DNA from: Pontibacter indicus
Lineage (GTDB): Bacteria; Bacteroidota; Bacteroidia; Cytophagales; Hymenobacteraceae
DNA: 64,000 nucleotides
Direction of reading: 5' to 3'
NCBI RefSeq assembly: GCF_900156345.1
Contig: NZ_FTPP01000002.1
Location: 620,001 to 684,000, forward strand
In this document: positions 1 through 64,000 of the stretch, piece after piece
Layout of the letters: every line of letters begins with the position of its first letter
Position numbering within the stretch: position 1 is the first letter of the stretch
The notes under the pieces: model-generated
Told to the model about the DNA's origin: nothing
Database searches by the model: none
The model's input: only the letters and a program-made list of their open reading frames with translations
Program-made: the position numbers and the translations under genes

Positions 1-1627
1 CGTAGCCCGGCGCGGCCTTGCGCTTGGCGTATAGCTGGATGAGCTCGGCGGCAATGTCCTTTACCTTGCTCTTGACCTTCTTCTTCTTGTTCTCCCACTC
101 CGGCGAGCCCAGTTTGCTCATGGTCGGCGGTCCGCCCTCTTTGCCGCTATACTTTGAGATCTTGTGCAGCGAGTGGATGGAAACGTAGAGCAGATCGTCG
201 TCGCGGTATACCAGTCGGATGGCCTCTTGCAGTCGACCGCCAACCTCTACCTTCTCCAGACCGGCAAAGCGGCCCACGCCATAGTCGGTGTGCGTGATGT
301 AGTCGCCGGGCTGCAGGGTGCGCAGCTCTTTCAGCGTCATGGCCTTGGACTTGGAGCGGCCCTCCTTGGCCTTGTGCTGGTAAAAGCGGTCGAAGAGCTG
401 GTGGTCGGTATAGCAGGTGATTTTGAGCTGATCGTCGATGAAACCCTCGCGTAACGATACTGCCAGATGCTGGAAACGCACATCGTGGTCCAACTCGTCG
501 AAGATGGTCGTGAGGCGATTGATCTGGCGCGGCGACTCCGTGGCGATGACGTTCACAAAGCCTTTGCTCTGCTGCTCGTGCAGGTCCTTGACCAGCCTGT
601 TGAAATCCTTGTTAAACGAGGGCTGCGGCTTGGACTGCAGCTGCAGCACTTCGGTGTCTTTGTAGTTGAAGCGCTTGCCGAACTCCACGATGCTGAACTT
701 CTCGAGTAGCTTCTTGAACTGCTTCTGCGTCTGAAACAGCTGCTCCGGATCCGACACGATCTGTGTGCCGCCGCTGCCCGCCATCAGCTTGTCAAACGCA
801 TGAGAAGCCTTGTCAAAATACTCGTCGATCACGTCCAGCGTCTGCCGCACATCCTTGAACCAGATGGTGGTGTTTTTGGGCAGGAAGTCGAGAAACGCCT
901 CGCGGGTTTCCTGTAGCAGTTTGGTTTGTACGTTGGGTATAATCGAGATGCTCTTCTTGGTCTCTACCGATAGCTGCGTGTCGGGGTCGAAGGACCGGAT
1001 ACTCTCAATCTCGTCGCCGAACAGTTCGATGCGGTAAGGCAGGTCGTTGGCATAAGAGAACACGTCTACGATGCCCCCGCGCACTGCATACTGGCCCGCC
1101 TCGTACACAAACTCGGTTCGCTCGAAGCCATATTCGGCCAGCATCTCGCTCAGGAAGTTTACATCCAGCTTTTCGCCCACCTTCGCGCCCAGCGTGTTTT
1201 CTACCAGCGACTTTTTATTGATCACTTTTTCGGTCAGCGCTTCGGGGTAGGTCACAATCAGTTCGCCTTTCTCGGACTTGCTGTTGAGGCGGTTGAGCAC
1301 CTCGGCCCGCATCAGGATGTTGGCGTTCTCGGTGTCGTCGAAGCTGTAAGGACGCTTATAGGACGTCGGGAAGAGCATCACCTCTTTCTCCTCGCCGAGT
1401 AGGTTTTTGAGGTCGGTATAGAAATAGGCCGCCTCCTCCTTGTCGTGCAGCACAAAAAGTTGGTGCTGCGGGTGCAAGGTATAAACGGCCGAGGCCATCA
1501 CGGCATCCAGACTGCCCGCCATGCCCTTGAGTTGCAGACGGTAGGGTTTATCAGCTTTAAGTCGCTCGGCAATGGTTTGCACCACCCCATCGAGACGGTA
1601 TAGCTCTAAAAAATCAGTTACTTTCAT
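1..1627 (-). CDS. mfd: Transcription-repair coupling factor Mfd, N-terminal part (cut by window edge)
   Basis: Mfd is the ATP-dependent DNA translocase that removes stalled RNA polymerase from lesions and recruits UvrA. The minus-strand reading frame opens at the ATG complementary to 1625-1627 (MKVTDFLELYRLDG) and runs without a stop to the left edge, about 542 codons. It contains the UvrB-like N-terminal module (FVYEAGQYAVRGGIVDVF, then YRIELFGDEIESIRSFDP) and the RNA-polymerase-interacting CarD-like domain (LQPGDYITHTDYGVGRFAGL). The window ends just before the helicase motor, so the motor motifs cannot be checked. A TACCTTTG box lies upstream at 1701-1708 on the minus strand, and the 5' leader contains a strong hairpin. 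Identification is secure; only completeness is unknown. Confidence 0.95.
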   Translation of the reverse strand, partial: MKVTDFLELYRLDGVVQTIAERLKADKPYRLQLKGMAGSLDAVMASAVYTLHPQHQLFVLHDKEEAAYFYTDLKNLLGEEKEVMLFPTSYKRPYSFDDTENANILMRAEVLNRLNSKSEKGELIVTYPEALTEKVINKKSLVENTLGAKVGEKLDVNFLSEMLAEYGFERTEFVYEAGQYAVRGGIVDVFSYANDLPYRIELFGDEIESIRSFDPDTQLSVETKKSISIIPNVQTKLLQETREAFLDFLPKNTTIWFKDVRQTLDVIDEYFDKASHAFDKLMAGSGGTQIVSDPEQLFQTQKQFKKLLEKFSIVEFGKRFNYKDTEVLQLQSKPQPSFNKDFNRLVKDLHEQQSKGFVNVIATESPRQINRLTTIFDELDHDVRFQHLAVSLREGFIDDQLKITCYTDHQLFDRFYQHKAKEGRSKSKAMTLKELRTLQPGDYITHTDYGVGRFAGLEKVEVGGRLQEAIRLVYRDDDLLYVSIHSLHKISKYSGKEGGPPTMSKLGSPEWENKKKKVKSKVKDIAAELIQLYAKRKAAPGY

Positions 1628-1652
1628 GCAGGTATATCACAAAACAGCAAAG

Positions 1653-1687
1653 GCAGAACACAGGACTTTTCGATAGTCGTGTTCTGC
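1653..1687 (-). promoter_or_regulatory. Hairpin in the mfd 5' leader
   Basis: GCAGAACAC at 1653-1661 and GTGTTCTGC at 1679-1687 are a perfect 9-bp inverted repeat with a 17-base loop, within which GACT and AGTC can pair again. It lies between the -7 box (1701-1708) and the mfd start, so it would be in the mRNA leader. There is no U-run, so it is not an obvious terminator. Its role is unknown. Confidence 0.5.
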
Positions 1688-1700
1688 TGGTTGTAGTTTA

Positions 1701-1708
1701 CAAAGGTA
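1701..1708 (-). promoter_or_regulatory. -7 box for mfd
   Basis: CAAAGGTA on plus reads TACCTTTG on minus, an exact match to the Bacteroidota TAnnTTTG element, about 75 bases before the mfd start. The upstream -33 element is weak (TCTG, spacing about 18). Confidence 0.55.
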
Positions 1709-1877
1709 AATAAACTAATGCTTTATCAGAACTGTGGGGAGGGGTAGAAAGTTGCGGGGAAAGAGAAATGTATTTCGGTGGAATAGGCTTAAGGTGATAC
1801 AATGGGATGGAAGTGACAGTATTGTCCAAGTGAATTTGCATCCACTTTTTTCACAAAAATCCATACCTTGTATACCC

Positions 1878-2363: not shown

Positions 2364-2634
2364 TCGAGGTGTTATCTGTCAAGATTCACTCCCAAAGCAA
2401 CAACGTAAGACCTCGCACTTCCGATAGCCTTTCTATTTGCAGAGGCTTTGCCTTTCCACTCGTCCAAATATGCCAAAACAGGTATAGCACAGCATAATAA
2501 CCATTTCAAGAGTGTAATCAGCACTAAACTTTTAGCAGAATCAGTTATAGTTATATTTTAAATTCGTATAAGCATATAAGTGCTTTTGTTACGTTACAAC
2601 TAGCTTAATAGAGAAGCAACTAGCGGGACTTAAA

Positions 2635-3429
2635 ATGGATGTGCTCAAGCGAAATAACATCAATATGTTCGGAAAAGGCGAACAGGCGCTTATGTTCGGC
2701 CACGGCTTTGGGTGCGATCAGAACATGTGGCGCTTTGTCACGCCTGCTTTTCAGCAGCAGTACAAGATTGTGTTGTTCGACCATGTGGGGGCTGGCAACT
2801 CCGACCTCGAGGCGTATGACACCCACAAGTATGGCAGTCTACAGGGCTACGCTTCCGACATCCTGGAGATGTGCCAGGAGCTGGACCTGGAGAATGTGAT
2901 CTTTGTCGGGCATTCAGTGAGCGCCATGATGGGAGTGCTTAGTGCCATCAGAGAGCCGGACTTGTTCAGCAAACTGATTCTGATTGGCCCATCGCCTTGC
3001 TACATCAATGACGAGAATTATGTCGGCGGTTTTGACCGGGCCGATGTACTGTCGATGCTCGCTTACATGGAGCACGACTACCCGCTTTGGGCCGATACGT
3101 TTGCTCCCCTGATCATGGGGAACCCGGATAAGCCTTCTTTGGGGGAGGAGCTGGCGCAGAGCTTCTGCAACACAGATCCGGATATCGCCCGGCATTTTGC
3201 GCAGGTCACCTTTCTATCGGACAACCGCCAGGACCTACCCAAGCTGCAGACTGAAACCCTGATCATGCAGTGTGCCGAGGACATTATTGCCCCAGCCGAA
3301 GTCGGAGATTACGTGCACCACGCGATCCGCAACTCCACTCTGGTGCAGATGGAGGCCACCGGTCACTGTCCCAATCTGAGCGCCCCATTGGAGACCATTG
3401 CCATCATCGACGACTTCCTTCAGGTATAG
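2635..3429 (+). CDS. RsbQ-like alpha/beta hydrolase
   Basis: This 264-residue protein matches the length and layout of RsbQ/D14/KAI2-type hydrolases. The oxyanion region FGHGFGCDQNMW is at residues 21-32. The nucleophile elbow GHSVSA places Ser94, and Asp216 and His244 complete the catalytic triad, close to S96/D219/H247 of Bacillus RsbQ. RsbQ acts with the PAS phosphatase RsbP in energy-stress control of SigB; no RsbP partner is next to it here, so the substrate and role are open. The stop codon TAG lies inside a copy of the CAGGTATAGC motif (3425-3434). Family call is firm, function is inferred only at family level. Confidence 0.85.
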   Translation: MDVLKRNNINMFGKGEQALMFGHGFGCDQNMWRFVTPAFQQQYKIVLFDHVGAGNSDLEAYDTHKYGSLQGYASDILEMCQELDLENVIFVGHSVSAMMGVLSAIREPDLFSKLILIGPSPCYINDENYVGGFDRADVLSMLAYMEHDYPLWADTFAPLIMGNPDKPSLGEELAQSFCNTDPDIARHFAQVTFLSDNRQDLPKLQTETLIMQCAEDIIAPAEVGDYVHHAIRNSTLVQMEATGHCPNLSAPLETIAIIDDFLQV

Positions 3430-3531
3430 CCGCTTTCATAACAAGAGCTGTTTGATTTGAAGAGTAATAGGATATACCTATATTTTAATTATATTTAAGC
3501 TGCAATCTATTTGCAGTACTAAATTAATTTT

Positions 3532-4998: not shown

Positions 4999-6078
4999 TT
5001 ATTTCAGAATCACCTTGATCTGCACAGGGTCCTGCAGCACACGCAGGTTCTGCTTGAGCTGCTCGAGTTCGTAGGTCAGGCTTTCTTTGGCGCGCTTAAA
5101 CTTTTGGTTCATCTGCTTGGGAGAGCCGCAGAAGTTGTCGTAGAAGGTGGCGTTGGGGCCGAAGATAAAGGCGTTGAGCTCCGCCTGAAGCTCGCTGAGC
5201 TGATCATCCAAAAGTTTGATGTAGTAAGTCAACTGCTCGTCGGGCAGTTTGTCGAGGGCCTGGCCTTGCTCCTCCATAAACTCCATCTGCAGGCGCAGCA
5301 GCTCAAAAAAGTCGTCGTGGTGGTAGGCTTGCGTCACGCGCTTCATGGCTTCTTCTTTCCAGGCGCGCTTGGTTTCGTCCTGTTCTTTGTCGGGGTGAAG
5401 CTGCTTGGCCAGATCGGTGTACACGCGGCGACTGGCTTTGCTGATTTTGCTGAGTTCGGCCTTGGCTTTTGCCTCCTTCTCTTGCTGCGCTTTGGTCTTG
5501 CGGCCTCTCTGGCGGTCCTGCCGGGCACGTTCCCGCGCTTCCTCTTCGCGGTCCAGCTGGGCCTGCAGGCGCTCAAATTCATCGAGCTCGTCCCAATTGT
5601 CAGGTATAGCTCCCTCTTCCTCGTTGGCTATACCTTCCTCCGGAAATTCCTCATCTGGTAAGTATAGGGTGCGCTCGGCATAAGGAACTTCAGCATAGCG
5701 GTCGTGCAGGGCGATCAGGTCTTGGCGTTCGTAGTCGCGGATCAGGTCGAGGGCCATGCTGGCGATCAGTTGGGCGAGCTTTTCTTTCTCTCTAAAACTG
5801 AACAGCGGCAGGGCAAAAGCCTCGTCCAGCAGCTTGACCAAGGCCACGCGCTGCGCCACCTGCTGCATGATGATGGGGCGCAGTTCCTTTTCGATACGCT
5901 TCTGAGCCAGGTCCATGCTGTCGCGCCGTGTGGTCAGTTCCTGCTTCAGTTGCTCTATCTGGGCTACTTTCCTGTTAAATTCCTGTTGCAGCTGACTCAG
6001 CCGGCGCTGGTCCGGCGAGGTGATCTGGGGCGTGAGCGATGGAACAGGTTTGTCGGACTTGGGAGAAGGCATAAGCAA
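4999..6078 (-). CDS. J-domain-containing coiled-coil protein
   Basis: The 359-residue product has an N-terminal coiled coil (about 25-75), an acidic linker, a highly charged helical stretch (175-215), and a J-domain-like segment with the HPD motif at residues 228-230 (LAKQLHPDKE). The HPD tripeptide is what J-domains use to stimulate the ATPase of DnaK-type chaperones, so a co-chaperone role is likely. It lacks the Gly/Phe and zinc regions of DnaJ. Two possible starts (MLM) lie six bases apart. It follows the lipoprotein gene on the same strand, separated by a strong hairpin. Client unknown. Confidence 0.75.
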   Translation of the reverse strand: MLMPSPKSDKPVPSLTPQITSPDQRRLSQLQQEFNRKVAQIEQLKQELTTRRDSMDLAQKRIEKELRPIIMQQVAQRVALVKLLDEAFALPLFSFREKEKLAQLIASMALDLIRDYERQDLIALHDRYAEVPYAERTLYLPDEEFPEEGIANEEEGAIPDNWDELDEFERLQAQLDREEEARERARQDRQRGRKTKAQQEKEAKAKAELSKISKASRRVYTDLAKQLHPDKEQDETKRAWKEEAMKRVTQAYHHDDFFELLRLQMEFMEEQGQALDKLPDEQLTYYIKLLDDQLSELQAELNAFIFGPNATFYDNFCGSPKQMNQKFKRAKESLTYELEQLKQNLRVLQDPVQIKVILK

Positions 6079-6095
6079 TGGGCAGGTATAGGAAC

Positions 6096-6138
6096 AGGTA
6101 TAGCGCCGGCAATTTACGGATAAGCCGGTGCTATACCT
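6096..6138 (-). terminator. Hairpin built from two inverted GGTATAGC copies
   Basis: The arms 6096-6110 and 6124-6138 pair over 15 positions (one G-T wobble) around a 13-base loop. Each arm consists of AGGTATAGC followed by a GC-rich CCGGC extension. It lies directly after the lipoprotein gene and before the J-domain gene on the minus strand, so it could end transcription or stabilise the upstream message. No clear U-run follows. Confidence 0.55.
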
Positions 6139-6141: not shown

Positions 6142-6771
6142 TTACTGCTGCGCATCGAACGGTATAAAGCGGTTGTTCTGCAGCAGGTATAGCGTGGTGC
6201 GGTTGCCGTCGAGCACCGACACGCCGTCGGTTTTCAGGTTGGTGAACTGCTGCTTGCGGGGGTTGCGCACGAGCGAGTCCTGCGGGGCGAGCCTGAGTTG
6301 CAGGTTGCTATACCTGCGCTCGTTCAGTTGCTGCGCGGGGTAAGCGGCCACTTTCATTTCGCGGGCCTGCGGAGTGCTGTAGTCTAGGAAAGCGAGGATG
6401 TAGATGGAGTCGTTCTGCAGCACCTGCACCGCATAGTCGGGTGTGCGGTTGCCGTTGAGGTTGCCGCGCAGGTATACCGGGTTGTCGACCTGCTGGGTGC
6501 GGTTGGACATGGCCTGGTCGGTGAGCACGGCTACTTCGGCCTGTGGCTGGCGTTGTTGCAGCAAGGTAGTGAGCGTGTCGGGCAGTGGATGCAGAATGGC
6601 GCCTTCATCAGTGGCGCGGGCTACGCTGTCGATAGAGGCTTTGGTGTCGGAGTCGATCTGACTTTCGATCAGGTCATCGTCGGCAGCGCGCTTGTAGTTG
6701 CCGTCGGCGGAGTCGGAACCGCAGGAGGCGAGGGCCAAAAGCCCAGTCAGGGCAAGTAGGTATGGTTTCAT
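6142..6771 (-). CDS. Lipoprotein of unknown function
   Basis: The start MKPYLLALTGLLALASCGSD was chosen because it gives a textbook lipoprotein signal peptide with the lipobox LASC, giving 209 residues; the frame stays open upstream without similar sense. The mature part is rich in Asp, Gln, Asn and Arg and contains a stretch (NLNGNRTPDYAVQVL) that reads like an FG-GAP or integrin-type repeat strand, often seen in surface proteins, but this is weak. It is followed by a 15-bp hairpin. No family assigned. Confidence 0.65.
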   Translation of the reverse strand: MKPYLLALTGLLALASCGSDSADGNYKRAADDDLIESQIDSDTKASIDSVARATDEGAILHPLPDTLTTLLQQRQPQAEVAVLTDQAMSNRTQQVDNPVYLRGNLNGNRTPDYAVQVLQNDSIYILAFLDYSTPQAREMKVAAYPAQQLNERRYSNLQLRLAPQDSLVRNPRKQQFTNLKTDGVSVLDGNRTTLYLLQNNRFIPFDAQQ

Positions 6772-6948
6772 AGGTATAGCGTTCGTTTTAAATAAGTTGC
6801 TTTGCATACCGTGCAGACTGGCAGAAAGTTGCAAGGCTCCGCCATGACAGGTATAAGTTAAAGCTCCAGGTATAGCTTCCGGTAACAACTATACCTGCCG
6901 GACATCTGCAAGATATATGCGCTAAATGTATAGCAGACATGAAGCATC

Positions 6949-8706
6949 CTACCGGATCAGCTCCACCTTGCGCTCGCCGATCTGCTGGCGCCACATGGCG
7001 TAGTAGAGTCCTTTTTGCTCCACCAGTTCGGCATGGGTGCCCTGCTCCACGATCTTGCCTTTTTCGAGCACATAAATGGTGTCGGCGTGCATGATGGTGC
7101 TAAGTCGGTGGGCGATTAGGATGGTGATCTGCTCGCGGAGGGCGGATATTTCCTTCACGGTGGCGGTGATCTCTTCTTCGGTGAGGGAATCGAGGGCAGA
7201 GGTGGCTTCGTCGAAAATGAGGAGGCGTGGGTTACGGATAAGGGCGCGGGCAATGGAAAGGCGTTGCTTTTCACCACCCGACATCTTCAGACCGCCCTCG
7301 CCAATTTGGGTATGGATGCCTTTCTCGGAGCGGGTGAGCAGTTGGGTGGCGGAGGCCTTTTCCATGGCCCGGATCACTTCCTCATCGGTGGCATCGGGTT
7401 TTACATACTGCAGGTTTTCCTTGATGGTGCCTGAAAACAGGTTGGTCTCCTGCGTCACAAAACCCAGCTGCCGCCGTGCTTCGTTCAGCCAGATTTCCTT
7501 CACGGGCGTGCCGTTGTAGTAAATCTCGCCGCTGGCCGGCAGGTATAGCCCGACCAGCAATTTCACCAGCGTGGATTTTCCGGAGCCCGACGGTCCCACA
7601 AAGGCAACAGTGTCGCCGGTGTTCGCCTCAAAGGAAATGCCATCGACGGAGTTTTGCGGCGCCCCTTTGTGCCGGAACACCACATTCTCAAACCGCAGCT
7701 GCTGCAACGGCCCGACGTTTATTGCCGACTCCGGCCGGGTCTCGACAGGCTTGTTCATGAGCTCGTCGAAGTTGTGGAGCGAGGCCTCGGCTTCGCGGTA
7801 GGTGAGGATGATGGTGCCCATGTCCTGCAGCGGCCCGAAGATGCTGACGGAAATAAACTGCATCGAAATCAGCTCGCCGGTGCTGAGCACATCCCGGAAA
7901 ATAAGCCAGAGCAAGGTGAACAGGATGGATTGCTTGAGCAAATTAAGGGCTGTGCCCTGTAGAAAAGAGAGCGTGCGCACCCGTTTCACTTTGGCCATTT
8001 CCAGCGAGAAAATCCGCTCGGTGTGCTCGCGCAGGCGGCGTATTTCGGGATAAGTCAAACCCAGACTTTTCACCAGTTCAATGTTGCGCAGCGACTCCGT
8101 GATCACACCCGACATCTTATTGGTGGCGCGGTTGATGGAGCGCTGCATGGTCTTGATCTTGGCGCTGAGCAAACTGGTCAGTCCGCCGAGCACCACCATC
8201 CCGATAATGAAAATAGGCACCAGCGCCCAGTGCTTCGTGATGGCATACCACACCAGGAAGCCAACGCCGACCAAAGACGAAAACAGGATGTTGATGAACG
8301 AGTTGATGAAGCGCTCGGTGTCGCGGCGCACGCGTTGCAGAATGGAAAGCGTTTCGCCACTGTTCTGGTCGGCGTATTCCTGGTAAGATAGTTTGAGGGT
8401 TTGCTTGAGGCCGTCGTTGAAGATCTGTACCCCGAACTTTTGCACCACCAGGTTGGTGAAATACTCCTGAAAGGCCTTTGCCAGGCGCGAGAGCAGCGCC
8501 ACCACCACAGCCAACAGCATCAACCACAGCGCACCCTTCACGCGTTCCTCGCTGGTCATGGTAAATGGCGGCGTGGCGTAGTTGTCGATGATCTTACCGA
8601 AGATGATCGGGTCGACCAGAGCCAGCACCTGGCTGGTGCCGGCCAGCAGCAGCGAAAGGATGACGAGCCCCCGATGAGGCTGCAGGTAGTTCCAGAGTAC
8701 GCGCAT
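6949..8706 (-). CDS. ABC exporter, fused permease and ATPase (MsbA/MDR type)
   Basis: A half-size ABC exporter of 585 residues that would work as a homodimer in the inner membrane. The N-terminal half carries about six membrane helices (residues 15-310). The ATPase follows with Walker A GPSGSGKST (371-379), the signature MSGGEKQR (475-482), Walker B LLIFDEATSALD (495-506) and the H-loop in LIAHRLSTI. The substrate cannot be read from the sequence; lipids, drugs or peptides are all possible for this family. It appears monocistronic, with about 180 bases of motif-rich spacer on each side. Confidence 0.92.
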   Translation of the reverse strand: MRVLWNYLQPHRGLVILSLLLAGTSQVLALVDPIIFGKIIDNYATPPFTMTSEERVKGALWLMLLAVVVALLSRLAKAFQEYFTNLVVQKFGVQIFNDGLKQTLKLSYQEYADQNSGETLSILQRVRRDTERFINSFINILFSSLVGVGFLVWYAITKHWALVPIFIIGMVVLGGLTSLLSAKIKTMQRSINRATNKMSGVITESLRNIELVKSLGLTYPEIRRLREHTERIFSLEMAKVKRVRTLSFLQGTALNLLKQSILFTLLWLIFRDVLSTGELISMQFISVSIFGPLQDMGTIILTYREAEASLHNFDELMNKPVETRPESAINVGPLQQLRFENVVFRHKGAPQNSVDGISFEANTGDTVAFVGPSGSGKSTLVKLLVGLYLPASGEIYYNGTPVKEIWLNEARRQLGFVTQETNLFSGTIKENLQYVKPDATDEEVIRAMEKASATQLLTRSEKGIHTQIGEGGLKMSGGEKQRLSIARALIRNPRLLIFDEATSALDSLTEEEITATVKEISALREQITILIAHRLSTIMHADTIYVLEKGKIVEQGTHAELVEQKGLYYAMWRQQIGERKVELIR

Positions 8707-8829
8707 GGGGTGTTTAGCTTTAAGTTCTCTTCCTACGGGTGTACCCGCTGCAGGTATACGGCTTGGCTGGTTTCGGCTCTGGGATGCAATCAGGTCAGCG
8801 ACAGGTATAGCTTTGAAACACAGGTATAA

Positions 8830-11554: not shown

Positions 11555-11604
11555 AAGCCCTGCTGTGGATTCAGGTATAGCCTGGAGCGCAGCAGGGCTT
11601 TTTT
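11555..11604 (+). terminator. Intrinsic terminator after the DUF2911 gene
   Basis: AAGCCCTGCTG (11555-11565) and CAGCAGGGCTT (11590-11600) form an 11-bp stem followed by a run of six T. The loop of 24 bases contains an exact CAGGTATAGC decamer. Confidence 0.85.
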
Positions 11605-11622: not shown

Positions 11623-12591
11623 CTATATCTGCGCAATGTGCCGCGGTAAGTCGTGTAGCTCGAATCGCTGCAGGAAGGTTTGCGCGTCGGCTATACCTGC
11701 GCTTTGCCAGCCGAGCAGCTGCGCTAGTTTCTGCCAAAGTTGCGACGGAGTGAGGCCGGCTTTGCGCATTTCGGTCAGCGAAAGCGAGTCGTGCGATTTG
11801 GAGAGCTTGTTGCCCTCGGCGGTGATGAGTGGGTGGTGTACAAATTGCGCCTGTGCGAAAGCGGCTGCGCCCGTATGCTGCGCCAGGAAAAGCTGCGCCG
11901 CTGTGGAGAGCATCAGGTCTTCGCCCCGCACGATCAGGTTCACACCCATGGCCAGGTCGTCGGCAATGGACGCGATCTGGTAGGCAGGTATAGCGTCTTT
12001 GCGGCGCACCACGAAGTCAGGCATTTCGAGGGCCAGTGCTACGGTGCAGTCACCCAAAAGCTGGTCGTGGAAGGCGATGGTCGTGCCCTCAGGTATACTG
12101 ATGCGCCAGGCGGCGTTGGGGGTGTCGAGCGGCAGCTGGGCATGGCGGCAGGTGAGTGGGTATAACCCCTGTGGCGACAAAGCATTTATCTGGCTGCGGG
12201 AACAGGGGCAGGCGTAGACCATACCTTGTTGCACCAGCTTATCCAACAGGCTGTTGTAGGAGGGAAGCCTTAAAAGCTGTGAGTAGTTCTCCTGAAAATC
12301 TTTGGTGTTACGTGGCCCTTCGTCGTAGTCGAGGCCCATGAAGGCGAGCGTGTCGAAGATGTCCTGCAGGTACTCGGGACGGAAGCGGGCATTATCGAGG
12401 TCGTCGATGCGGAGGGCTACTATACCCTGCTGCTTGCGTGCCAGCGCCCACGTAATGGCAAACGACAGCGCATTGCCCAGATGCAGAAAGCCGCTGGGAG
12501 TCGGGGCGATGCGGGTTTTTATGGGTTGGGTCGTTTGCAAAAGTATAGCGCTGGGTTTGGTAAGGTCAAAGGTATAGCTGCTATTTCTCAA
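11623..12591 (-). CDS. gluQ: Glutamyl-Q tRNA(Asp) synthetase (GluQRS-like)
   Basis: This 322-residue class I synthetase has the catalytic halves but no anticodon-binding domain, as expected of GluQRS, which attaches glutamate to queuosine at position 34 of tRNA(Asp). The HIGH-type motif is at 34-40 (GFLHLGN), the KMSKS-type motif at 262-266 (KLSKS), and the zinc site typical of this paralogue is present: C128, C130, Y144 and C148. A full GltX would be about 150 residues longer. It converges on the DUF2911 gene across a shared terminator. Confidence 0.85.
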   Translation of the reverse strand: MRNSSYTFDLTKPSAILLQTTQPIKTRIAPTPSGFLHLGNALSFAITWALARKQQGIVALRIDDLDNARFRPEYLQDIFDTLAFMGLDYDEGPRNTKDFQENYSQLLRLPSYNSLLDKLVQQGMVYACPCSRSQINALSPQGLYPLTCRHAQLPLDTPNAAWRISIPEGTTIAFHDQLLGDCTVALALEMPDFVVRRKDAIPAYQIASIADDLAMGVNLIVRGEDLMLSTAAQLFLAQHTGAAAFAQAQFVHHPLITAEGNKLSKSHDSLSLTEMRKAGLTPSQLWQKLAQLLGWQSAGIADAQTFLQRFELHDLPRHIAQI

Positions 12592-15833: not shown

Positions 15834-16793
15834 ATGAAACTTTCCCGCGACATCATCCATAGCATTGCCCGGCACAGCAACTGGCGCGAGGCAGGTATAG
15901 CCGACTGGCTTCGCAAAGGGCAGGTATACGCCACGCCGCAGGACTGGATAAAGTTCATCCGGCTGTTTCTGCTCGGGCTTGGGGGTAGCTTCCTTATCTC
16001 GGGCATCATCTTCTTTTTCGCTTACAACTGGGCCGACATGCACAAGTTCGTGAAGCTGGGACTGATCGAGGTGCTGATCCTGGCGGTAACCTTTGCGGCA
16101 GTGTTCCTTAAGCTGAGTAGTACCGCCAAAAACGTGTTGCTCACGGCTGCTACCATGCTAGTGGGCGTGCTCTTTGCCGTGTTCGGACAGATCTACCAGA
16201 CGGGCGCCAACGCTTACGACTTCTTCCTGGGCTGGACCATTTGTGTGGTGCTGTGGGTAGCCGTGGCCCGGTTTCAACCGCTGTGGTTCATCTTCCTGGT
16301 GCTGCTCAACACCACTTTTGTGCTCTATACCCAACAGGTAGCCACGGGCTGGAGTTTTGCCGTGGTGCTCGACGCGCTTTTTGTGCTCAATGCCACGGCA
16401 GTGGTAGCATGGGAAGTGCTGGCTGCAAAAGGCCGTGTAAGTATACAGCACCGCTGGTTTCCAAGGCTGGTGAGTCTGGCGGCGATTACGGCTATTACCA
16501 TCAGCATGATTTCGAACTTGTATAACGGTATCGGAGAAGATTACCGCATTGCTTTCTTGCTGGGAGCAGTTATGTATGGGCTGGGCATCTGGTACGGACT
16601 GCGGGTGCGCGATATCTTTTACCTCACGGCCCTGCCGTTCAGCGGCATTGCTTTCGTGACGGCTGCACTGGTGCGCATCGGACAAAGTGCACCTGAAATG
16701 ATGCTGCTCCTCGCCACGTTATTTGTCGTGGGCAGCATCACGCTACTGGTACAGTATTTAACCAACCTTAACCGTCAGTGGCATGGCCGATAA
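15834..16793 (+). CDS. DUF2157 membrane protein
   Basis: First gene of a three-gene operon. The 319-residue product has a short cytoplasmic N terminus with the DUF2157 pattern (WREAGIADWLRKGQVYATPQDWIKFIRLFLLGLGG) followed by about nine membrane helices. It overlaps the next gene by 11 bases. DUF2157 is commonly found just before DUF4401 and GDYXXLXY genes, as here; the function of the set is not established. Confidence 0.87.
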   Translation: MKLSRDIIHSIARHSNWREAGIADWLRKGQVYATPQDWIKFIRLFLLGLGGSFLISGIIFFFAYNWADMHKFVKLGLIEVLILAVTFAAVFLKLSSTAKNVLLTAATMLVGVLFAVFGQIYQTGANAYDFFLGWTICVVLWVAVARFQPLWFIFLVLLNTTFVLYTQQVATGWSFAVVLDALFVLNATAVVAWEVLAAKGRVSIQHRWFPRLVSLAAITAITISMISNLYNGIGEDYRIAFLLGAVMYGLGIWYGLRVRDIFYLTALPFSGIAFVTAALVRIGQSAPEMMLLLATLFVVGSITLLVQYLTNLNRQWHGR

Positions 16794-18479: not shown

Positions 18480-18836
18480 ATGCGCATCGAGAAACGTTTT
18501 GTAGCAGGTATAGCACGCGGTCTCGCTTACTACGTGGGCGGTTGTGCGCTGGTCTGGCTCACTTACCTGCTGTTTGGTTGGGAATACACCCACGCACCCG
18601 GCGCACACCACCTGATGGGTTTGCTGGTGCTCGTGGTCGGTGCCGTACGGCTGATCAGGCGCCTGATCGGTATGCTGACAACTCCAGCCGACCTGCACAA
18701 CAAAGGAGCGCTCCTGGTCCATGCTCTGGCAGTGGTCGGTTTCATCCTTTTCTTCAAGCTCGTCGTCCTAAACGGCGCCCTCAAGCGCGACACCGGCGGC
18801 CTGGTCGTCTCCGAAACCCACACATCCGGCTACTAA
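18480..18836 (+). CDS. Small three-helix membrane protein of unknown function
   Basis: 118 residues with about three hydrophobic segments: GLAYYVGGCALVWLTYLLFG (about 15-35), HHLMGLLVLVVGAVRLI (40-60) and ALAVVGFILFFKLVVLNG (80-98). The ATG at 18480 follows a purine-rich GGAG and is spaced three bases from the stop of a tiny upstream frame. No family recognised. It lies downstream of the DUF2157 operon and may be co-transcribed with it. Confidence 0.6.
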   Translation: MRIEKRFVAGIARGLAYYVGGCALVWLTYLLFGWEYTHAPGAHHLMGLLVLVVGAVRLIRRLIGMLTTPADLHNKGALLVHALAVVGFILFFKLVVLNGALKRDTGGLVVSETHTSGY

Positions 18837-18987: not shown

Positions 18988-19419
18988 ATGGGAAAGCTCT
19001 TAATAAAAATAACGATGCTCTGCTGGATGTGCTGTGCCCCGATAGTTATGCAGGCACAAGTCAATAAAGACATGAATTTGGAAGCCTATAAATGGGAGAA
19101 ACGCCTTTTGCTGCTCTTTGCTCCCACAATGAATGACGCCGAACTGGGTAGGCAAAAGGAGCTGGTTCGCAGAAGCCAGTCAGGTATAGCAGAGCGGCAG
19201 TTGGAGGTGCTGGAACTGGTGCCGGGCGGCAACGCGGCAACCATGCGCGAGGACCTGCTCCGAAAATTCGGGGTGGAAGCTGAGCGCTATACCTTGCTGC
19301 TGATCGGGAAAGACGGACAGGAGAAATTTCGGACTCAAAAAGCCGTACCGCTGGAAGAAGTCTTCAAAATAATCGACCAGATGCCGATGCGCCGGGAGGA
19401 AATGCGTAAACAGGACTAA
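18988..19419 (+). CDS. Secreted DUF4174 protein
   Basis: 143 residues starting with a signal peptide (MGKLLIKITMLCWMCCAPIVMQAQ), then a compact thioredoxin-like alpha/beta domain: RLLLLFAPTMNDAELGRQ, VLELVPG and YTLLLIGKDGQEKFRT strands and a final helix. This order matches DUF4174, whose members are periplasmic and of unknown activity. No CxxC is present, so it is not a disulfide enzyme. It ends 10 bases before the next gene, suggesting an operon. Confidence 0.78.
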   Translation: MGKLLIKITMLCWMCCAPIVMQAQVNKDMNLEAYKWEKRLLLLFAPTMNDAELGRQKELVRRSQSGIAERQLEVLELVPGGNAATMREDLLRKFGVEAERYTLLLIGKDGQEKFRTQKAVPLEEVFKIIDQMPMRREEMRKQD

Positions 19420-19429: not shown

Positions 19430-20053
19430 ATGGCTTTTGAGCAGCACTCCTTCCCGCACGAACGTCGCTCGCTGGTGGCAGATGTGCGGCATCAGTTGAT
19501 CTCGTTCATCCGCTCGTTCACGCTGTTGCTCTACATCGTGATGGGGATGGCCGTGGTGGGGGTGGTCATGAAATTTCTGGGGCTGACGGGCGGCAGTTTC
19601 GTGTTTGTGTTTGCCATGGCCGTGCTCATGTTGCTGCTGCTGGTGCAGGTCGGGCTGTCGTTTTTCTACATCGTTTCGAACGTGTGGCTGGCACTGCTGG
19701 GGGCCTTCAGTAGCTTTTCGCTGGTGGCGGGGCTGCTGGCGCTTATTTTCCGCTACCAGAACTGGTTTGGCTGGCAGGTGATCTTTTATGCCGTGGTGCC
19801 GCTATACCTGCTGGTGGGCCTGTTGCTGTTCCTATACCTGAAGCGCTTCCGGAAACTGCACGAGCCGCTGCGCAATTTCTTTTATCTTAATCTGGTCATC
19901 CCTTTTGCGTTTTTGCTGTTGCTGGGATTGGTGTCCTTTCTATTCAGTGCCGACCGCTTCAACAAAGAAGAAGACCCCGTGCTGGAGCAATCTCCTATAC
20001 CTATCGATAGGGCTGCAGCAGAGGATACGACAGGGTTGTGGCGGACATACTGA
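19430..20053 (+). CDS. Polytopic membrane protein of unknown function
   Basis: 207 residues with about six membrane helices between residues 20 and 180, a short polar N terminus (FEQHSFPHERRSLVADVRHQ) and a Glu/Pro-rich C-terminal tail. It begins 10 bases after the DUF4174 gene and is probably co-transcribed. No recognised motif. Confidence 0.65.
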   Translation: MAFEQHSFPHERRSLVADVRHQLISFIRSFTLLLYIVMGMAVVGVVMKFLGLTGGSFVFVFAMAVLMLLLLVQVGLSFFYIVSNVWLALLGAFSSFSLVAGLLALIFRYQNWFGWQVIFYAVVPLYLLVGLLLFLYLKRFRKLHEPLRNFFYLNLVIPFAFLLLLGLVSFLFSADRFNKEEDPVLEQSPIPIDRAAAEDTTGLWRTY

Positions 20054-21315: not shown

Positions 21316-21341
21316 TCGCGGCCAACCCGACGCTATACCTG

Positions 21342-24414: not shown

Positions 24415-24431
24415 GCTGCGCTATACCTGCC

Positions 24432-46920: not shown

Positions 46921-46956
46921 CAGGTATAGCCATTGCGTTTTGAGTTGCTATACCTG
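46921..46956 (-). terminator. Hairpin of two inverted CAGGTATAGC copies between purN and purH
   Basis: CAGGTATAGC (46921-46930) and GCTATACCTG (46947-46956) are exact inverted copies of the scattered decamer, forming a 10-bp stem around a 16-base loop. It follows the purN stop by about 40 bases and precedes purH, so it may attenuate or separate the two transcripts. Confidence 0.5.
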
Positions 46957-47672: not shown

Positions 47673-48128
47673 TTATCTTCTGAAGGTACGGGTATACAGC
47701 TCAATCCACTCTAGCGGCGTCATTTTGGAGGCCAACTCACCGATCAGCGCCAGCGGTACATGCTCTGGTTTCTTAAAGCGGATACAACTTTTACCCATGT
47801 CAAGCTTTCGATCGCTGTGTTTCGGGAACTCCTCCTGAAACCAGTTAAGGAGGCTTTCATCGGCATACATCCCCATATGGTACACGGCAATGTGATTCTT
47901 CTGCGAGGCAATGCCCATGAAGGGCAGAGGTTGCTTCGGGTCGCAGTGGTAGCCGGCCGGGTATAAGGTATGCGGCACGGCATAGCCCAGCATGCCGTAG
48001 CCCATCATTTCTTCAAAACCTGTCGGAATATTTTGCAAGATCACATTTCGCAGATCCTGCATGATCTGCTGGCGGGCTTCAGGCAACTCAGCCAGGTATA
48101 GCTCGGGGGTAGGGGCGGTTGATTGCAT
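47673..48128 (-). CDS. DUF1801/YdhG-like protein
   Basis: A 151-residue protein with the YdhG-like fold: YLAELPEARQQIMQDLRNVI, GFEEMMGYGMLGYAVP, FMGIASQKNHIAVYHMGM and GKSCIRFKKPEHVPLALIGEL are characteristic. Members are small cytoplasmic proteins of unknown biochemistry, in some species linked to iron. Probably monocistronic. Confidence 0.88.
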   Translation of the reverse strand: MQSTAPTPELYLAELPEARQQIMQDLRNVILQNIPTGFEEMMGYGMLGYAVPHTLYPAGYHCDPKQPLPFMGIASQKNHIAVYHMGMYADESLLNWFQEEFPKHSDRKLDMGKSCIRFKKPEHVPLALIGELASKMTPLEWIELYTRTFRR

Positions 48129-49753: not shown

Positions 49754-49808
49754 AACGAAGGTTAGATACAGGTTTGGCTAACGGATCAAGAACTATCAGG
49801 TATAGCAC

Positions 49809-50298: not shown

Positions 50299-50506
50299 GA
50301 CTGTGTAATTAACAAAATGCACATGGAAAATGCAAGACCTAACCCCTTGGCGTTCTCCGTATTATGCTTCTTTATATTGTAAAATACAGGTATAAAATGG
50401 TGGGTTAAAAAGAAGGTCGGCAGAAGCAGGTATAGCGTGGCTTGTTATAGAACGCGAAATACGAGTCGCGTCTAGCGAACGGCTTATTCTATACCTGAAG
50501 AGTCTG

Positions 50507-51352
50507 TTAATTGATCAGCAGCATGGACAGAATGCCGGTCAGCATGATGAGCTTGCCCAGGTTGCTGAGGTAGGTGAAGTCGCGTTTGCGGTCGGCGCGC
50601 ACCAGTTTTACCGTCATCCAGATGCTTGGAATCAACACCAGCAGCAGCATGTACATGTCAAAGCCTATACCTGTGACGGGGTGGAAGATGACCACTAGCA
50701 GGAAAGCCTGGAAGAGCGCGATAATAGGGTATAGCACATACTTGGCGCGCCGTATACCCAGCACAATCGGGAGGGTGCGGCAGTCGAAAGAAGCGTCGCC
50801 CCGCACATCTTCCATGTCCTTGACGATCTCCCGGATAAGCGAAATCAAAAAGGCAAACACCGCGTAGCTGATGGTAATGTTATTGAGTTTGCCGGCATAA
50901 ACGGCCACCACCAGCAGCATGGAGGCTGACAGCAGCGCAATGACCACGTTGCCGGCCAACGGCATCTTTTTCAGCGTGGCCGAGTAGCCCCACAGCAGCA
51001 AAACAGCACCCACATTGATCAGGCCTACAGGTATAGACAAGGCAAAGCCGAGCGCTATACCTGCAAACGAAAGCACCATGTGCGTGAACAAGGCTGGCCT
51101 GCGCCGGATGCTCCTGCCCACCACCACCCGGTCCGGTTTGTTGATGGCGTCGATCTTGACATCGTAATAATCGTTGATGATGTAGCCCGCCGCCGCGATG
51201 CACACCGTAGAGAGCGTGAGCACCAGAAACCCGGGCGTGGCTATACCTGCCAGGTCGATGCCCGCGCTCAGCAAACTAGCCTGCACCAGCGCCTGGCTGA
51301 GCACGATGAGCAGCAGGTTGGGGAAGCGGATAAGCGACAGAAATTCTTTCAA
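50507..51352 (-). CDS. UbiA-family prenyltransferase (geranylgeranylglycerol-phosphate transferase-like)
   Basis: 281 residues with about nine membrane helices. The first Asp-rich motif is N60-D61-Y-Y-D64 with D68 (INDYYDVKIDAINKPDR) and the second is KDMEDVRGDASFDCRTLP (about 172-189). These bind prenyl diphosphate through magnesium. In Bacteroidota this type is annotated as geranylgeranylglycerol-phosphate geranylgeranyltransferase; heme, quinone or other prenyl acceptors are alternatives. Two inverted CAGGTATAG copies lie within the gene (51028-51063). Confidence 0.88.
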   Translation of the reverse strand: MKEFLSLIRFPNLLLIVLSQALVQASLLSAGIDLAGIATPGFLVLTLSTVCIAAAGYIINDYYDVKIDAINKPDRVVVGRSIRRRPALFTHMVLSFAGIALGFALSIPVGLINVGAVLLLWGYSATLKKMPLAGNVVIALLSASMLLVVAVYAGKLNNITISYAVFAFLISLIREIVKDMEDVRGDASFDCRTLPIVLGIRRAKYVLYPIIALFQAFLLVVIFHPVTGIGFDMYMLLLVLIPSIWMTVKLVRADRKRDFTYLSNLGKLIMLTGILSMLLIN

Positions 51353-51423
51353 GGCGATGTAACGTAGCAGGTATAGCGCTTGTAAAGTTAAGGCCAGTGC
51401 GTGGCACCGCCAACAAAGGGCAT

Positions 51424-60461: not shown

Positions 60462-61103
60462 TTACGAACGCCAAAGGTACGGGAACAAAATATAAGAAAC
60501 AGTGATAACGATCATGTTTATGGCAAGCAAAGTCAGCAGTTCGTCGAGACTGGCGGCCCGCTCCAGTCCGTCCATGGCGTTTTTAGACATTTTGATCAGC
60601 ATGAGCAGCATCGGCACGATCACCGGGAAGCTGAGCACGGCCATCAGGGTGCTGCTGTTGGCGGCCTTGGAGGCTATACCTGAAATCATGGTGAGCGAGG
60701 TCGCAAAACCGATGGCGCCTAGCAGAATGCTGAGCAAAAACATCGGGATGTCCTCTACCGGATTGCCCAGCACAAATGCGTAGAACACGAAGCAGATGAG
60801 CGCCAGCACCAGCATGAGGCAGGCGTTGTAAAGGATCTTGGCCAGTATGATGCCCTGCGGACTCACGATGGAGTAGAAATAGAGCAGCCGGCCGCGGTTC
60901 TCCTGCATAAAGCTCTTGGCAATGGCGTTAACCGACGTGAAGAGCATGATGATCCAGAAAAGCGCATTCCAGACAGGCACCTGCAGGACATTGGAGCGCA
61001 GCCCGAAGCTAAGGTAGCAGACGAATACGGTGCTGCTGACATAAAGCAACATGCCGTTGAAGGCATACTTCTGCCGCAACTCCAGCAGAAAATCCTTTTG
61101 CAT
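60462..61103 (-). CDS. ccmB: Heme exporter subunit CcmB
   Basis: The start MQKDFLLELRQKYAFNGMLL gives 213 residues with six membrane helices, the length of CcmB. The frame stays open 61 codons upstream without family sense. It contains SFMQENRGRLLYFYSIVSPQGIILAKILYN, a segment typical of CcmB. The ATPase partner CcmA is not encoded in this cluster. A TACCTTTG box lies upstream at 61146-61153. Confidence 0.9.
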   Translation of the reverse strand: MQKDFLLELRQKYAFNGMLLYVSSTVFVCYLSFGLRSNVLQVPVWNALFWIIMLFTSVNAIAKSFMQENRGRLLYFYSIVSPQGIILAKILYNACLMLVLALICFVFYAFVLGNPVEDIPMFLLSILLGAIGFATSLTMISGIASKAANSSTLMAVLSFPVIVPMLLMLIKMSKNAMDGLERAASLDELLTLLAINMIVITVSYILFPYLWRS

Positions 61104-61305: not shown

Positions 61306-61373
61306 TAATCATGCTATACCTGTTAAACTTAACCTCCTCAAACCCACAATTAAACCATCAACAATTTAACAAT

Positions 61374-62051: not shown

Positions 62052-62111
62052 TCGTATGTCTTTGTTTGAGTGAGACTAAATTTCTATACGTGAATCGGCG
62101 GTGAGCATCCC

Positions 62112-62876
62112 TTAACCGAAACGGCCCGTGATGTAGTTTTGCGTGCGCTCGTTTTTAGGGCTCGTAAACATGGTTTTGGTTTTGGAATACTCCACCAGCT
62201 CACCCATGTAGAAGAAGGCGGTGTGGTCACTTACGCGACCGGCCTGCTGCATGTTGTGCGTCACAATAATGATGGTGTAGTACTGCTTCAGCTCATGAAT
62301 CAAGTCCTCAATTTTAGCCGTTGAGATGGGGTCTAGAGCCGAGGTGGGTTCGTCCATCAGGATCACCGACGGCGAGATGGCCAGCGCGCGGGCAATGCAG
62401 AGGCGCTGCTGTTGTCCACCGGAAAGGGCCAGCGCCGATTTGTCCAGCTTGTCTTTCACCTCGTCCCAAAGGGCCGTCTGGCGCAGCGACTTCTCACAAG
62501 TCTCCCGCAACAGTTTCTTGTCCTTTATACCTTGTATTTTAAGGCCGTAGACTACGTTCTCGAAAATTGTTTTGGGGAAAGGGTTCGGTTTCTGGAACAC
62601 CATGCCCACCTCTTTGCGTAGTTCGTCTACCCGTACGTTACTGGCGTAAATATCGCGGTTGTCCAACAAAATCTGCCCTTGCACGCGGAAACCGTCGATG
62701 TAGTCGTTCATGCGGTTAAGGGTACGCAAAAACGTGGACTTGCCGCAGCCTGAAGGACCGATAAAGGCTGTCACAGCCTTTTCTTCCATGGCGATGTTGA
62801 TGTTTTTAAGCGCATGAAAATCGCCGTAATAGGCATCGAGGTTAATAGCCTCTAACTTGTGTTGTCTTTTGGTCAT
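62112..62876 (-). CDS. pstB: Phosphate ABC transporter ATPase PstB
   Basis: 254 residues. Walker A is GPSGCGKST (about 38-46), the signature is [15 protein letters not shown] and Walker B is [12 protein letters not shown]. The [11 protein letters not shown] segment is specific to PstB. It powers phosphate uptake through PstA and PstC, encoded upstream in the same operon. Confidence 0.96.
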
Positions 62877-62886
62877 GGGTGAAAAC

Positions 62887-63744
62887 TTACCATTTTATTT
62901 TCTTTTGCTGACGGTTACGCAGGTATACCGCAATGCCGTTAAGCAAGAAGGTAATCAGTAACAGGATAATAATGGCTGCCGCCGCATTGGTCAGGAAGGC
63001 TGCCTGTGGACGCGAGGTCCAGTTAAAGATCTGGATCGGCAGCACCGTAAACTCGTCCATCGGCGACTTCGGCACAAAAGGCACATAAGCCAGCGCCCCG
63101 ATCACGATCAGCGGAGCTGCCTCGCCTACTGCCCTGGAAAGCGCCAGGATTACACCCGTCAGGATACCCCCAAACGAGGCGGGCAGCACCTGGTGCCACA
63201 CCGTCTGCCATTTAGAGGCGCCTAGCGCAAACGAACCGTCGCGGATGGTGCGGGGCACCGCCTTGATGGCTTCGCGCGTGGTCACAATCACGATAGGCAG
63301 GATAAGGAGCGAAAGCGTAAGCGCACCAACCAGCAAAACCGGCCCCAGATACATGAAACGCACAAAAAGCTCCAGACCCAGCAAACCATAAATAATGGAC
63401 GGCACACCAGCCAGGTTGGCAATGTTAATCTCTAGGAAATCCGCGAGCTTCGTCTTTTTCGCGTACTCCTCCAGGTATACGCCGGCGGCTATACCTAGCG
63501 GGAAGGCAATCAGGGCGGAAAGCACCAGAATCCAGAGCGTACCGGTCCAAGCGGTGAGTATACCTGCCCGGGCAGCCCGGCGCGAAGGCAAACTGGTCAG
63601 GAAGTCCCAGTCAATGCGGCGAACACCTTCAATAACGATATCAACCAGGAAGATGGCCAGCACCACCAGCCCGATGAAGGTACAGAAAATGCCGAACACC
63701 TGAAAGGCCTTGTCTTTGAGGCGGTTTTTTTCGGAGTTAGTCAT
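62887..63744 (-). CDS. pstA: Phosphate ABC transporter permease PstA
   Basis: 285 residues with six membrane helices. The EAA loop contacting PstB is [20 protein letters not shown] ([17 protein letters not shown] follows). [19 protein letters not shown] is another family segment. It overlaps pstC by 8 bases and precedes pstB by 10. Confidence 0.95.
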
Positions 63745-64000
63745 ACTTTTCCTGATATTTCTTTTTAATCCAGAAGCTGAGGTTGTTCAGCAGGAACGTG
63801 AACACAAACAGCGTCATACCTGCCGCGAAAATGGTGCGGTACTCGAGCGAGCCGTGCGGCACGTCGCCCATGCTCACCTGCACAATGTAGGTGGTGATCG
63901 TCTCGATCGGCACCAGCGGGTTGAGCGTAAGACGCGGCTGCTGACCTGCGGCGATGGCCACGATCATGGTTTCACCCACTGCTCTTGAAATAGCCAGGAT
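63737..64000 (-). CDS. pstC: Phosphate ABC transporter permease PstC, C-terminal end (cut by window edge)
   Basis: The minus-strand frame is open to the right edge. The visible 87 residues begin [20 protein letters not shown], the C-terminal part of the PstC permease, and end with a membrane helix and [12 protein letters not shown]. The rest of the gene, and probably pstS, lie beyond the window. Confidence 0.92.

Follow-up and report, generated by a model that had tools for sequence, protein, structure and literature searches.

The decamer CAGGTATAGC is enriched throughout the genome of Pontibacter indicus and belongs to a family of words that follow lineage across the genus with a constant TATA core, two dialects being present in some genomes. 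Copies persist in lineages of the same dialect and do not in others. The core of the family is ARSTATAR, plus a ATATATAA variant, and its abundance is best explained by a trans-acting, sequence-specific reader; we infer that this putative reader is a DNA-uptake receptor. Thus, CAGGTATAGC may be a dialect of a DNA-uptake (self) sequence that is shared across the genus and propagated through biased transformation, a reading that we put forward tentatively and at somewhat less than even confidence.

Enrichment in the window and the genome

The window (the whole 64,000-nt stretch analyzed here) contains 43 exact copies of CAGGTATAGC, 26 forward and 17 reverse, where the sequence-only reading had counted about 40 by eye. 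Twelve of the 13 example positions given in that reading lay within 0 to 4 bases of a real copy, and the remaining one, 19192, was 11 bases off (the copy is at 19181). All copies listed are exact matches to CAGGTATAGC.

2479..2488, +, copy
3421..3430, +, copy; its TAG is the stop codon of ORF 2635-3429
5601..5610, +, copy
6095..6104, +, copy
6184..6193, +, copy
6307..6316, -, copy
6867..6876, +, copy
7540..7549, +, copy
8802..8811, +, copy
11572..11581, +, copy
11690..11699, -, copy
11985..11994, +, copy
15892..15901, +, copy
18505..18514, +, copy
19181..19190, +, copy
19801..19810, -, copy
21332..21341, -, copy
22501..22510, +, copy
22602..22611, +, copy
22789..22798, -, copy
24420..24429, -, copy
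25855..25864, -, copy
26153..26162, -, copy
26178..26187, +, copy
26411..26420, -, copy
27509..27518, +, copy
32252..32261, +, copy
33900..33909, -, copy
33961..33970, -, copy
35143..35152, -, copy
35808..35817, +, copy
38886..38895, +, copy
40041..40050, +, copy
46921..46930, +, copy; inverted pair arm 1 (partner 46947..46956)
46947..46956, -, copy; inverted pair arm 2 (partner 46921..46930)
48093..48102, +, copy
49797..49806, +, copy
50427..50436, +, copy
51054..51063, -, copy
51240..51249, -, copy
51368..51377, +, copy
60673..60682, -, copy
61313..61322, -, copy

Across the whole P. indicus genome, CAGGTATAGC occurs 1,472 times (768 plus 704) versus 4 (2 plus 2) for the reversed word. A 284-kb sample of the same genome held 113 exact copies and none of the reversed word; with one mismatch, the counts were 241 for CAGGTATAGC versus 4. 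Markov expectations for this sample were 0.4 (order 1), 1.0 (order 2), and 3.4 (order 3) copies, and 12.3 at order 4, for which the training data were this very sample with its motif copies left in. The earlier proposal of a genome-wide signal of this lineage was therefore supported: the count was not near the Markov expectation (113 versus 0.4 to 12.3 in the 284-kb sample), copies were not clustered in the window alone (1,472 genome-wide versus 43 in the window), and the word is restricted to a clade. The shorter word GGTATA, previously put at about 3 per kb in the first 10.7 kb, measured 3.46 per kb there versus 3.23 per kb over the window (207 copies), so the start of the window is nothing special.

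Length, placement, and orientation of the word

The flank profile contained no clear information outside the 10 bp, and tolerance at the inner positions of the word was sharp. Word density was 2- to 16-fold higher between ORFs than within them; by crude ORF calls, 73 of the 113 CAGGTATAGC copies lay within ORFs. These 73 copies were read as Gly-Ile-Ala (20), Arg-Tyr-Ser (5), Ala-Ile-Pro (20), Leu-Tyr-Leu (24), and x-Tyr-Thr-x (4), and none was in the TAG phase. Of the peptides proposed from the sequence alone, Gly-Ile-Ala, Arg-Tyr-Ser, and Leu-Tyr-Leu were recovered, and the supposed Gly-Ile-Pro is in fact Ala-Ile-Pro; the proposed reading as a stop is exemplified by the copy at 3421..3430, which terminates its ORF.

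Bases of intergenic copies were better conserved than their flanks; for AAGTATAA and AACTATAG copies in coding sequence, the excess of conservation over the flanks was weak. The word occurs in divergent, tandem, and convergent spacers, with the highest density in convergent spacers in three of three clades; a promoter or terminator role was rejected on the basis of its presence in spacers of all three orientations. Same-direction pairs were in excess at spacings of 6 to 8 bp and, in the AACTATAG clade, also at 19 to 20 bp, with no convincing helical phasing in copy spacings. No replichore bias was seen in G030, the only genome tested, in which 20 stretches carried 292 leading versus 263 lagging copies of AACTATAG.

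Dialects across the genus

CAGGTATAGC is one dialect of the Pontibacter word family. Our genus sample comprised 50 species-level genomes, 40 motif-rich (strong) and 10 motif-poor (weak), with AAGTATAA in 22 genomes, AGGTATAG in 12 (one clade), AACTATAG in 5, and ATATATAA in 1; G026 and G032 are two-dialect genomes. Dialects sorted by lineage on a mutS tree, where AGGTATAG formed a single clade with support of 100/100. The ratio of ARSTATAR to its reversed form was 4.5 to 15.8 in 39 of the 50 genomes and no higher than about 1.4 in 150 other Hymenobacteraceae genomes, none of which was enriched. G087, a small genome outside Pontibacter in the order sample, had a ratio of 2.4. Of 80 Bacteroidota-centered mutS loci, 79 were surveyed after one shorter than 9 kb had been set aside; among the best 40 of these 79, a similar word was found only at the three Pontibacter loci. 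Larger genomes carried less of the motif (rho of -0.61 across 49 genomes, excluding G069 and uncorrected for phylogeny). No paper on a Pontibacter motif or on Pontibacter competence was among the matches listed.

Retention at orthologous sites

Between two AAGTATAA clades, 233 of 467 orthologous AAGTATAA copies were kept, compared with 163 of 1,148 for a permuted-word control. When AAGTATAA copies were followed into AGGTATAG genomes, 16 of 350 were kept. For AGGTATAG copies followed into two AAGTATAA clades, an aligned AGGTATAG stood at 0 of 220 sites in the first clade and at 9 of 152 in the second. A variety of words occupied the aligned sites in other dialects, and most of the nine commonest listed contained no gap. 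Retention only under a genome's own dialect argues that a trans-acting reader maintains the word.

Plasmid-like contigs and motif-poor stretches

The word is near background on three plasmid-like contigs, with 3 AAGTATAA copies in 53.8 kb versus 153 in 140 kb of chromosome in G020, 5 copies in 60 kb versus 64 in 100 kb in G019, and 3 copies in 40 kb versus 36 in 60 kb in G001. Relaxase and ArdC genes are present on the G020 and G019 contigs, and TraG on that of G020. The word was also depleted in one island-like desert, which, like the three contigs, may be a recent arrival. A very poor stretch in G000 is mainly an ilv operon, indicating that low density is not confined to foreign DNA.

Competence genes and the putative reader

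ComEC (PF03772) and a ComEA-like frame, the latter broken in G021, were present in all 50 genus genomes. A type IV pilus or type II secretion system (T2SS) ATPase (PF00437) was not found in these 50 genomes, with up to 31 first-look candidates scored per genome; there were short partial matches only, three genomes lying barely above the cutoff with about 60 of 370 positions covered. A ComP-type pilin is therefore not expected as the putative receptor, which would represent a new type. In motif-poor genomes, comEC was full length and stop-free in 10 of 10, as was the comEA-like gene in the 9 of 9 fetched. Presence of the two proteins is thus not discriminating, and their loss as the cause of motif loss was rejected for these genomes.

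G021 is the sole genome that fits ComEC/ComEA-like loss with a lower motif level. Both genes are frameshifted there, every other gene tested near the comEA-like gene or near mutS kept its frame, and the genome's enrichment of 4.49 is the lowest in its 12-genome clade (chance of 1 in 12). In G009, comEC is broken, yet enrichment is ordinary (6.95).

Against mutS distance, the mean residual of ComEC was -0.020 when the two genomes shared a dialect and +0.033 when they did not; for ComEA, the values were -0.043 and -0.001, respectively. G021 and G009 ComEC and G021 ComEA were dropped for length. ComEC or ComEA as the specificity determinant was rejected since there was little dialect effect apart from faster ComEC divergence in the two AACTATAG genomes sampled, which accompanied the ComEC difference. 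An HHH_3 protein of about 770 amino acids, presumably Tex-like, was set aside.

Possible explanations for the word

Under biased transformation, chromosomal fragments with the cell's own word would be preferentially taken up by the putative receptor, and the incoming DNA would pass the ComEA-like protein and ComEC before recombining at the homologous locus. Word-creating mutations would be favored in transfer and would spread by molecular drive, coding constraint would limit the word in genes, and foreign DNA would start without it. Upon a shift in receptor specificity, the old word would decay and a new one would build up at other positions. A fuller version, possible but held with more reserve, is a type IV pilus-free form of self-recognition with evolving dialects: a new receptor would feed ComEA/ComEC, and at least three specificity changes would have kept the TATA core, with thousands of positions rewritten per change and a gene-exchange barrier between sister species.

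Biased repair or modification similar to that suggested by the highly iterated palindromes (HIPs) of cyanobacteria, with a methyltransferase or mismatch-repair-linked enzyme converting near-matches and no transformation needed, appears unlikely. HIP1 and alternate HIPs are likewise short words iterated genome-wide with lineage replacements, and PMC4390886 describes HIPs as GC-rich palindromes with associated methyltransferases that they track. The sharp inner-position tolerance and slow loss observed here would also suit a correction process. However, the Pontibacter word is a non-palindromic, TATA-cored decamer, and two of the three methyltransferase families searched did not track it in the 50 genomes: PF01555 occurred in 27 of 40 strong, 4 of 10 weak, and 1 of 5 AACTATAG genomes and PF02086 in 13 of 50, leading us to reject a tracking methyltransferase in these families. 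PF07669 was present in 47 of 50 genomes as family-level matches, orthologs not separated. In addition, a cell-wide repair bias should mark long-resident plasmids too, although the residence time of the plasmid-like contigs may be short. Given the lack of a palindrome and the two families that do not track the word, uptake sequences were the better fit of the analogues named in the sequence-only reading, and HIP1 the poorer.

Equally improbable, in our estimation, are binding sites of a chromosome-organizing or maintenance protein (nucleoid, segregation, or replication) under weak selection for density. The word's abundance on the chromosome and on both strands, its excess between genes, the conservation of intergenic copies above flanks, and the local clusters of same-direction copies would all be expected of such sites; however, at least three dialect changes are required if AAGTATAA is ancestral, and copies do not hold their positions (the 0 of 220 and 9 of 152 above), so that functional sites would have had to disappear in their thousands at the same time. 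Replichore bias is also lacking in G030, and helical phasing is absent beyond a few short spacings. Chi and KOPS are oriented with replication. A polar recombination or segregation site of this type would likewise be a short, non-palindromic, lineage-specific word, but strand symmetry in the G030 replichores and the lower density in genes make it very improbable. Mobile short-repeat debris or a transposase target site would account for high copy number, spacers included, and is the least probable explanation of all given the lack of clear information beyond 10 bp, the varied, mostly ungapped words among the commonest nine aligned in other dialects, and the presence of copies in ORFs in several codon phases.

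Relation to known systems and significance

The uptake words described so far come mainly from two families of proteobacteria, in which pilins have been shown or predicted to act as receptors. The uptake signal sequence (USS) of the Pasteurellaceae, with extra flanking signal, resembles the Pontibacter word in being short and present in over a thousand copies on both strands; its sequence is unrelated, and Pontibacter has no clear flanking signal and no pilus ATPase that we found. The DNA uptake sequence (DUS) of the Neisseriaceae is closer, being a ten-base non-palindromic word with thousands of copies, lineage dialects, and a constant core. Differences are the phylum, the core (CTG in the DUS, TATA here), and, in Pontibacter, the undetected pilus or T2SS ATPase and hence no expected ComP-type pilin, with uptake itself putative. 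The S. muelleri genome has two DUS dialects, similar to G026 and G032, according to PMC3630211, and PMC7371117 describes atypical DUS distribution in mobile elements, as seen here. Within the Bacteroidota, Riemerella columbina prefers its own DNA in transformation; in that study (PMC7965970), no uptake word was established, and the top words were A/T-rich. Unlike REP/BIME repeats, the Pontibacter word lacks a longer palindromic spacer unit (no clear signal past 10 bp; 73 of 113 copies in ORFs).

The genus constitutes a natural experiment: its 50 species-level genomes offer four dialects, two genomes in which a pair of dialects coexists, and ten that are motif-poor. Dialect-dependent retention amounts to trans-acting maintenance of a genome word and bears on the old question of drive versus site function. 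In practical terms, the word may help to separate resident chromosome from recently arrived DNA. Finally, a comparable word in a Bacteroidota genus with no detected pilus ATPase would point to another type of DNA receptor, one that can be searched for.

Abundance and anatomy of the decamer

The decamer CAGGTATAGC is a real, genome-wide and clade-bound signal. A sequence-only reading had described it as saturating the window and had taken it for a genome-wide property of the lineage, and counting bears out both claims. The window carries 43 exact copies (26 forward, 17 reverse), and the whole genome (4,566,239 bases, 8 contigs) carries 768 + 704, versus 2 + 2 for the reversed word used as control. 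Counts are also far above Markov expectation: a 284-kb sample of the genome held 113 exact and 241 one-mismatch decamers (reversed word, 0 and 4), against 0.4 to 3.4 exact copies expected under orders 1 to 3 and 12.3 under an order-4 model trained with the motif included. An initial survey of 36 genus-mates showed it to be common in 8 (559 to 1,456) and rare in the other 28 (19 to 134). The host is a Pontibacter, the MutS protein of the window sharing 97% identity with its P. ramchanderi counterpart.

The decamer tolerates very little change at its inner positions. Genomes using AGGTATAG, one of several lineage-specific versions ("dialects") of the word, yielded 196 exact decamers in 494 kb versus at most 8 for each single substitution at positions 2 to 7; some G was tolerated at position 8 (21 copies), and positions 1, 9, and 10 were loose. 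The 3' end was looser in the other dialects than in AGGTATAG genomes. Beyond 10 bp the signal was near background. The exceptions were AACTATAG genomes, in which position +3 kept a weak signal of 0.10 bits that the palindrome AACTATAGTT probably explains, and G069 (82 copies), whose flanks were noisy.

Dialects and their range

Ranking 8-mers against an order-2 model in mutS-centred stretches of 49 genus-mates (20 kb each; four shorter, at contig ends) showed that the genus is structured into dialects, with AGGTATAG, AAGTATAA, and AACTATAG as top words and TATATAAA/ATATATAA in G069. At a density of at least 0.45/kb, and with G069 placed by hand, 12 genomes were assigned to AGGTATAG, 22 to AAGTATAA, 5 to AACTATAG, 1 to ATATATAA, and 10 to none. 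On the mutS tree, AGGTATAG genomes form a single clade (100/100), AAGTATAA genomes are scattered over several branches, and AACTATAG genomes join G026 and G032 in a starred clade of seven. The latter two each carry two dialects, with 23 copies of AAGTATAA apiece per 20 kb alongside 24 (G026) or 12 (G032) copies of AACTATAA. In the simplest order, AAGTATAA would be ancestral and the other dialects derived.

Genome-wide, the ratio of the family core ARSTATAR to its reversed control ranged from 4.5 to 15.8 in 39 of the 50 genus genomes; the remaining eleven, among them G069 with its own word, lay between 0.95 and 3.6. Among 150 genomes from five other Hymenobacteraceae genera, none showed such enrichment (ratio at most about 1.4). 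Ratios outside Pontibacter in a Cytophagales sample (148 genomes) were mostly below 1 and above 1 in some, the highest being 2.4 in a 1.2-Mb genome (G087). The reversed word was commoner than ARSTATAR in most genomes sampled there, and words of this shape are thus often avoided. Non-Pontibacter genomes were scored for ARSTATAR, with words of other form covered only at mutS loci. Other locally repeated 8-mers were seen in a 22-kb Bernardetiaceae stretch (L027; AATCATTA, 12 copies) and a 13-kb stretch of a Bacteroidales MAG (L047; CATTTACA, 15 copies). A longer dispersed element, roughly CTCCGGAGGGCCTTTTTCATTAGAATAATT, combining a terminator-like hairpin with a fixed tail, was met in Pontibacter genomes G025 (L165, L267, L288) and G068 (L160, L269), with at least 21 copies among the matches listed and none in two scanned G027 stretches.

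Genomic placement

Relative to crude open reading frames (ORFs; at least 80 aa, chosen greedily, with straddling copies scored as outside), decamer density in the P. indicus genome (G000) was 0.29/kb inside and 1.18/kb outside. The outside/inside ratio was 2.3 for AGGTATAG in other AGGTATAG genomes, 4.1 for AAGTATAA, and 7.8 for AACTATAG; ATATATA reached 16 in a single stretch of G069 with 28 copies. Every spacer class contains copies. No replichore strand bias was found for AACTATAG in 20 stretches of G030 (292 leading, 263 lagging; strands assigned from GC skew). In the window, one spacer holds two inverted decamers 16 bases apart (46921-46956), which could form a hairpin; such pairs are few. 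The gene at positions 13531-14625 matches SoFic-like protein adenylyltransferase Fic with 424 bits, short of the curated cut-off (550).

The word is scarce on the second contigs of three assemblies, where AAGTATAA occurred 3 times in 53.8 kb, 5 in 60 kb, and 3 in 40 kb, versus 153 in 140 kb, 64 in 100 kb, and 36 in 60 kb of the respective chromosomes. ARSTATAR density on these plasmid-like contigs was 0.30 to 0.45/kb (control, 0.22 to 0.33). Relaxase and ArdC genes are present on two of them, together with TraG on one of the two; the third (L205, G001) carries a transposase and a chloramphenicol acetyltransferase family gene. A chromosomal desert in G030 (L190, 7.5 to 20 kb) includes genes for HipA, an HTH protein, RadC, and AbiEii. 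However, a G000 stretch in which 5 kb hold 2 to 3 copies (the mean is 13.4) consists mainly of an ilv operon, whose low density is probably due to coding constraint, and this speaks against reading low density purely as foreign DNA.

Maintenance of copies

In same-dialect alignments of at least 300 bp and 75%, intergenic AGGTATAG bases were conserved at 0.78 to 0.92 (flanks, 0.71 to 0.75), AACTATAG bases at 0.78 to 0.88 (flanks, 0.72), and seven of eight AAGTATAA bases at 0.79 to 0.86, the last at 0.70 (flanks, 0.70 to 0.74). Coding AGGTATAG copies were clearly more conserved than their flanks (0.91 to 0.96; flanks, 0.81 to 0.82), and coding AAGTATAA and AACTATAG copies gave mixed results.

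Retention of dialect words in alignments (minimum, 200 bp and 70%), with permuted words as control. Counts are sites x genome pairs and are not independent; B1 and B2 are two deep AAGTATAA clades.
Word; comparison; word retained; permuted words retained
AAGTATAA; B1 to B2; 233/467; 163/1,148
AAGTATAA; B1 to AGGTATAG genomes; 16/350; 140/1,202
AAGTATAA; B2 to AGGTATAG genomes; 8/254; 62/1,239
AAGTATAA; B1 to AACTATAG genomes; 30/342; 107/826
AAGTATAA; B2 to AACTATAG genomes; 25/192; 96/824 (not below control)
AAGTATAA; in motif-poor G025/G027/G068; 0/97; 41/298
AAGTATAA; in six other motif-poor genomes; 18/273; 110/716
AGGTATAG; inside own clade; 240/356; 301/1,274
AGGTATAG; in B1; 0/220; 288/1,592
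AGGTATAG; in B2; 9/152; 84/919
AACTATAG; inside own clade; 127/261; 226/733 (weakest contrast)
AACTATAG; in B2; 1/170; 172/1,063

Copies are thus protected in genomes using the same dialect and unprotected in others, and those of a new dialect mostly appear at new positions. Both observations are predicted by a trans-acting, sequence-specific reader and not by a local function of each site.

Competence genes and possible function

All 50 genus genomes encode ComEC; in G021 and G009 the gene contains stops. The ComEA-like protein of G000 (318 aa, three HHH_3 stretches) scores 92 bits against TIGR01259, below the cut-off of 152; its frame spans about 304 to 346 aa in 49 genomes and is broken in G021. 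There, comEC is frameshifted into two frames and the comEA-like gene into three (L257, L277). Frame tests in G021 were passed by 8/9 and 10/12 genes in the mutS region and by 9/14 and 10/12 around the comEA-like gene, itself one failure per set; the remaining failures were in-frame stops with the frame unchanged, and in two control pairs 2 of 9 and 2 of 10 genes failed. G021 also has the lowest enrichment of the 12 genomes in its clade, a coincidence that is suggestive but not significant. In G009 (L266), comEC is broken (two frames, stops), its 3' part is unmatched in the fetched stretch, and motif density is ordinary. ComEC of the AACTATAG genomes G030 and G060 (L259, L260) has diverged beyond the mutS-distance prediction (residual, about +0.16).

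Two results count against an uptake function of the word: none of the genes examined tracked the motif, and motif-poor genomes retain both comEC and the comEA-like gene. The T2SS/T4P ATPase family gave nothing beyond a short partial match in any genus genome examined, and a ComP-type pilin is therefore not expected. Because this pilus feature, which was tested for, was not found, we do not class the word as a DNA uptake sequence (DUS), although it behaves like one. A reader might instead be a biased repair or modification activity, or a chromosome-organising protein; either could keep the word abundant, and we give the two equal weight as serious alternatives, each less likely than uptake. A transfer advantage is preferred because a reader's change of specificity would be costly if each of thousands of sites were needed, a cost that transfer does not bear. 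Combined with the near absence of the word on plasmid-like contigs and its close similarity to the uptake-sequence dialects described for Neisseriaceae (PMC3630211; PMC7371117), this argument makes an uptake word our first choice. Within Bacteroidota, Riemerella columbina reportedly prefers its own DNA, with no uptake word established for it (PMC7965970). DNA uptake is, tentatively, the most likely function of the Pontibacter word, which would confer its advantage through biased uptake followed by recombination.
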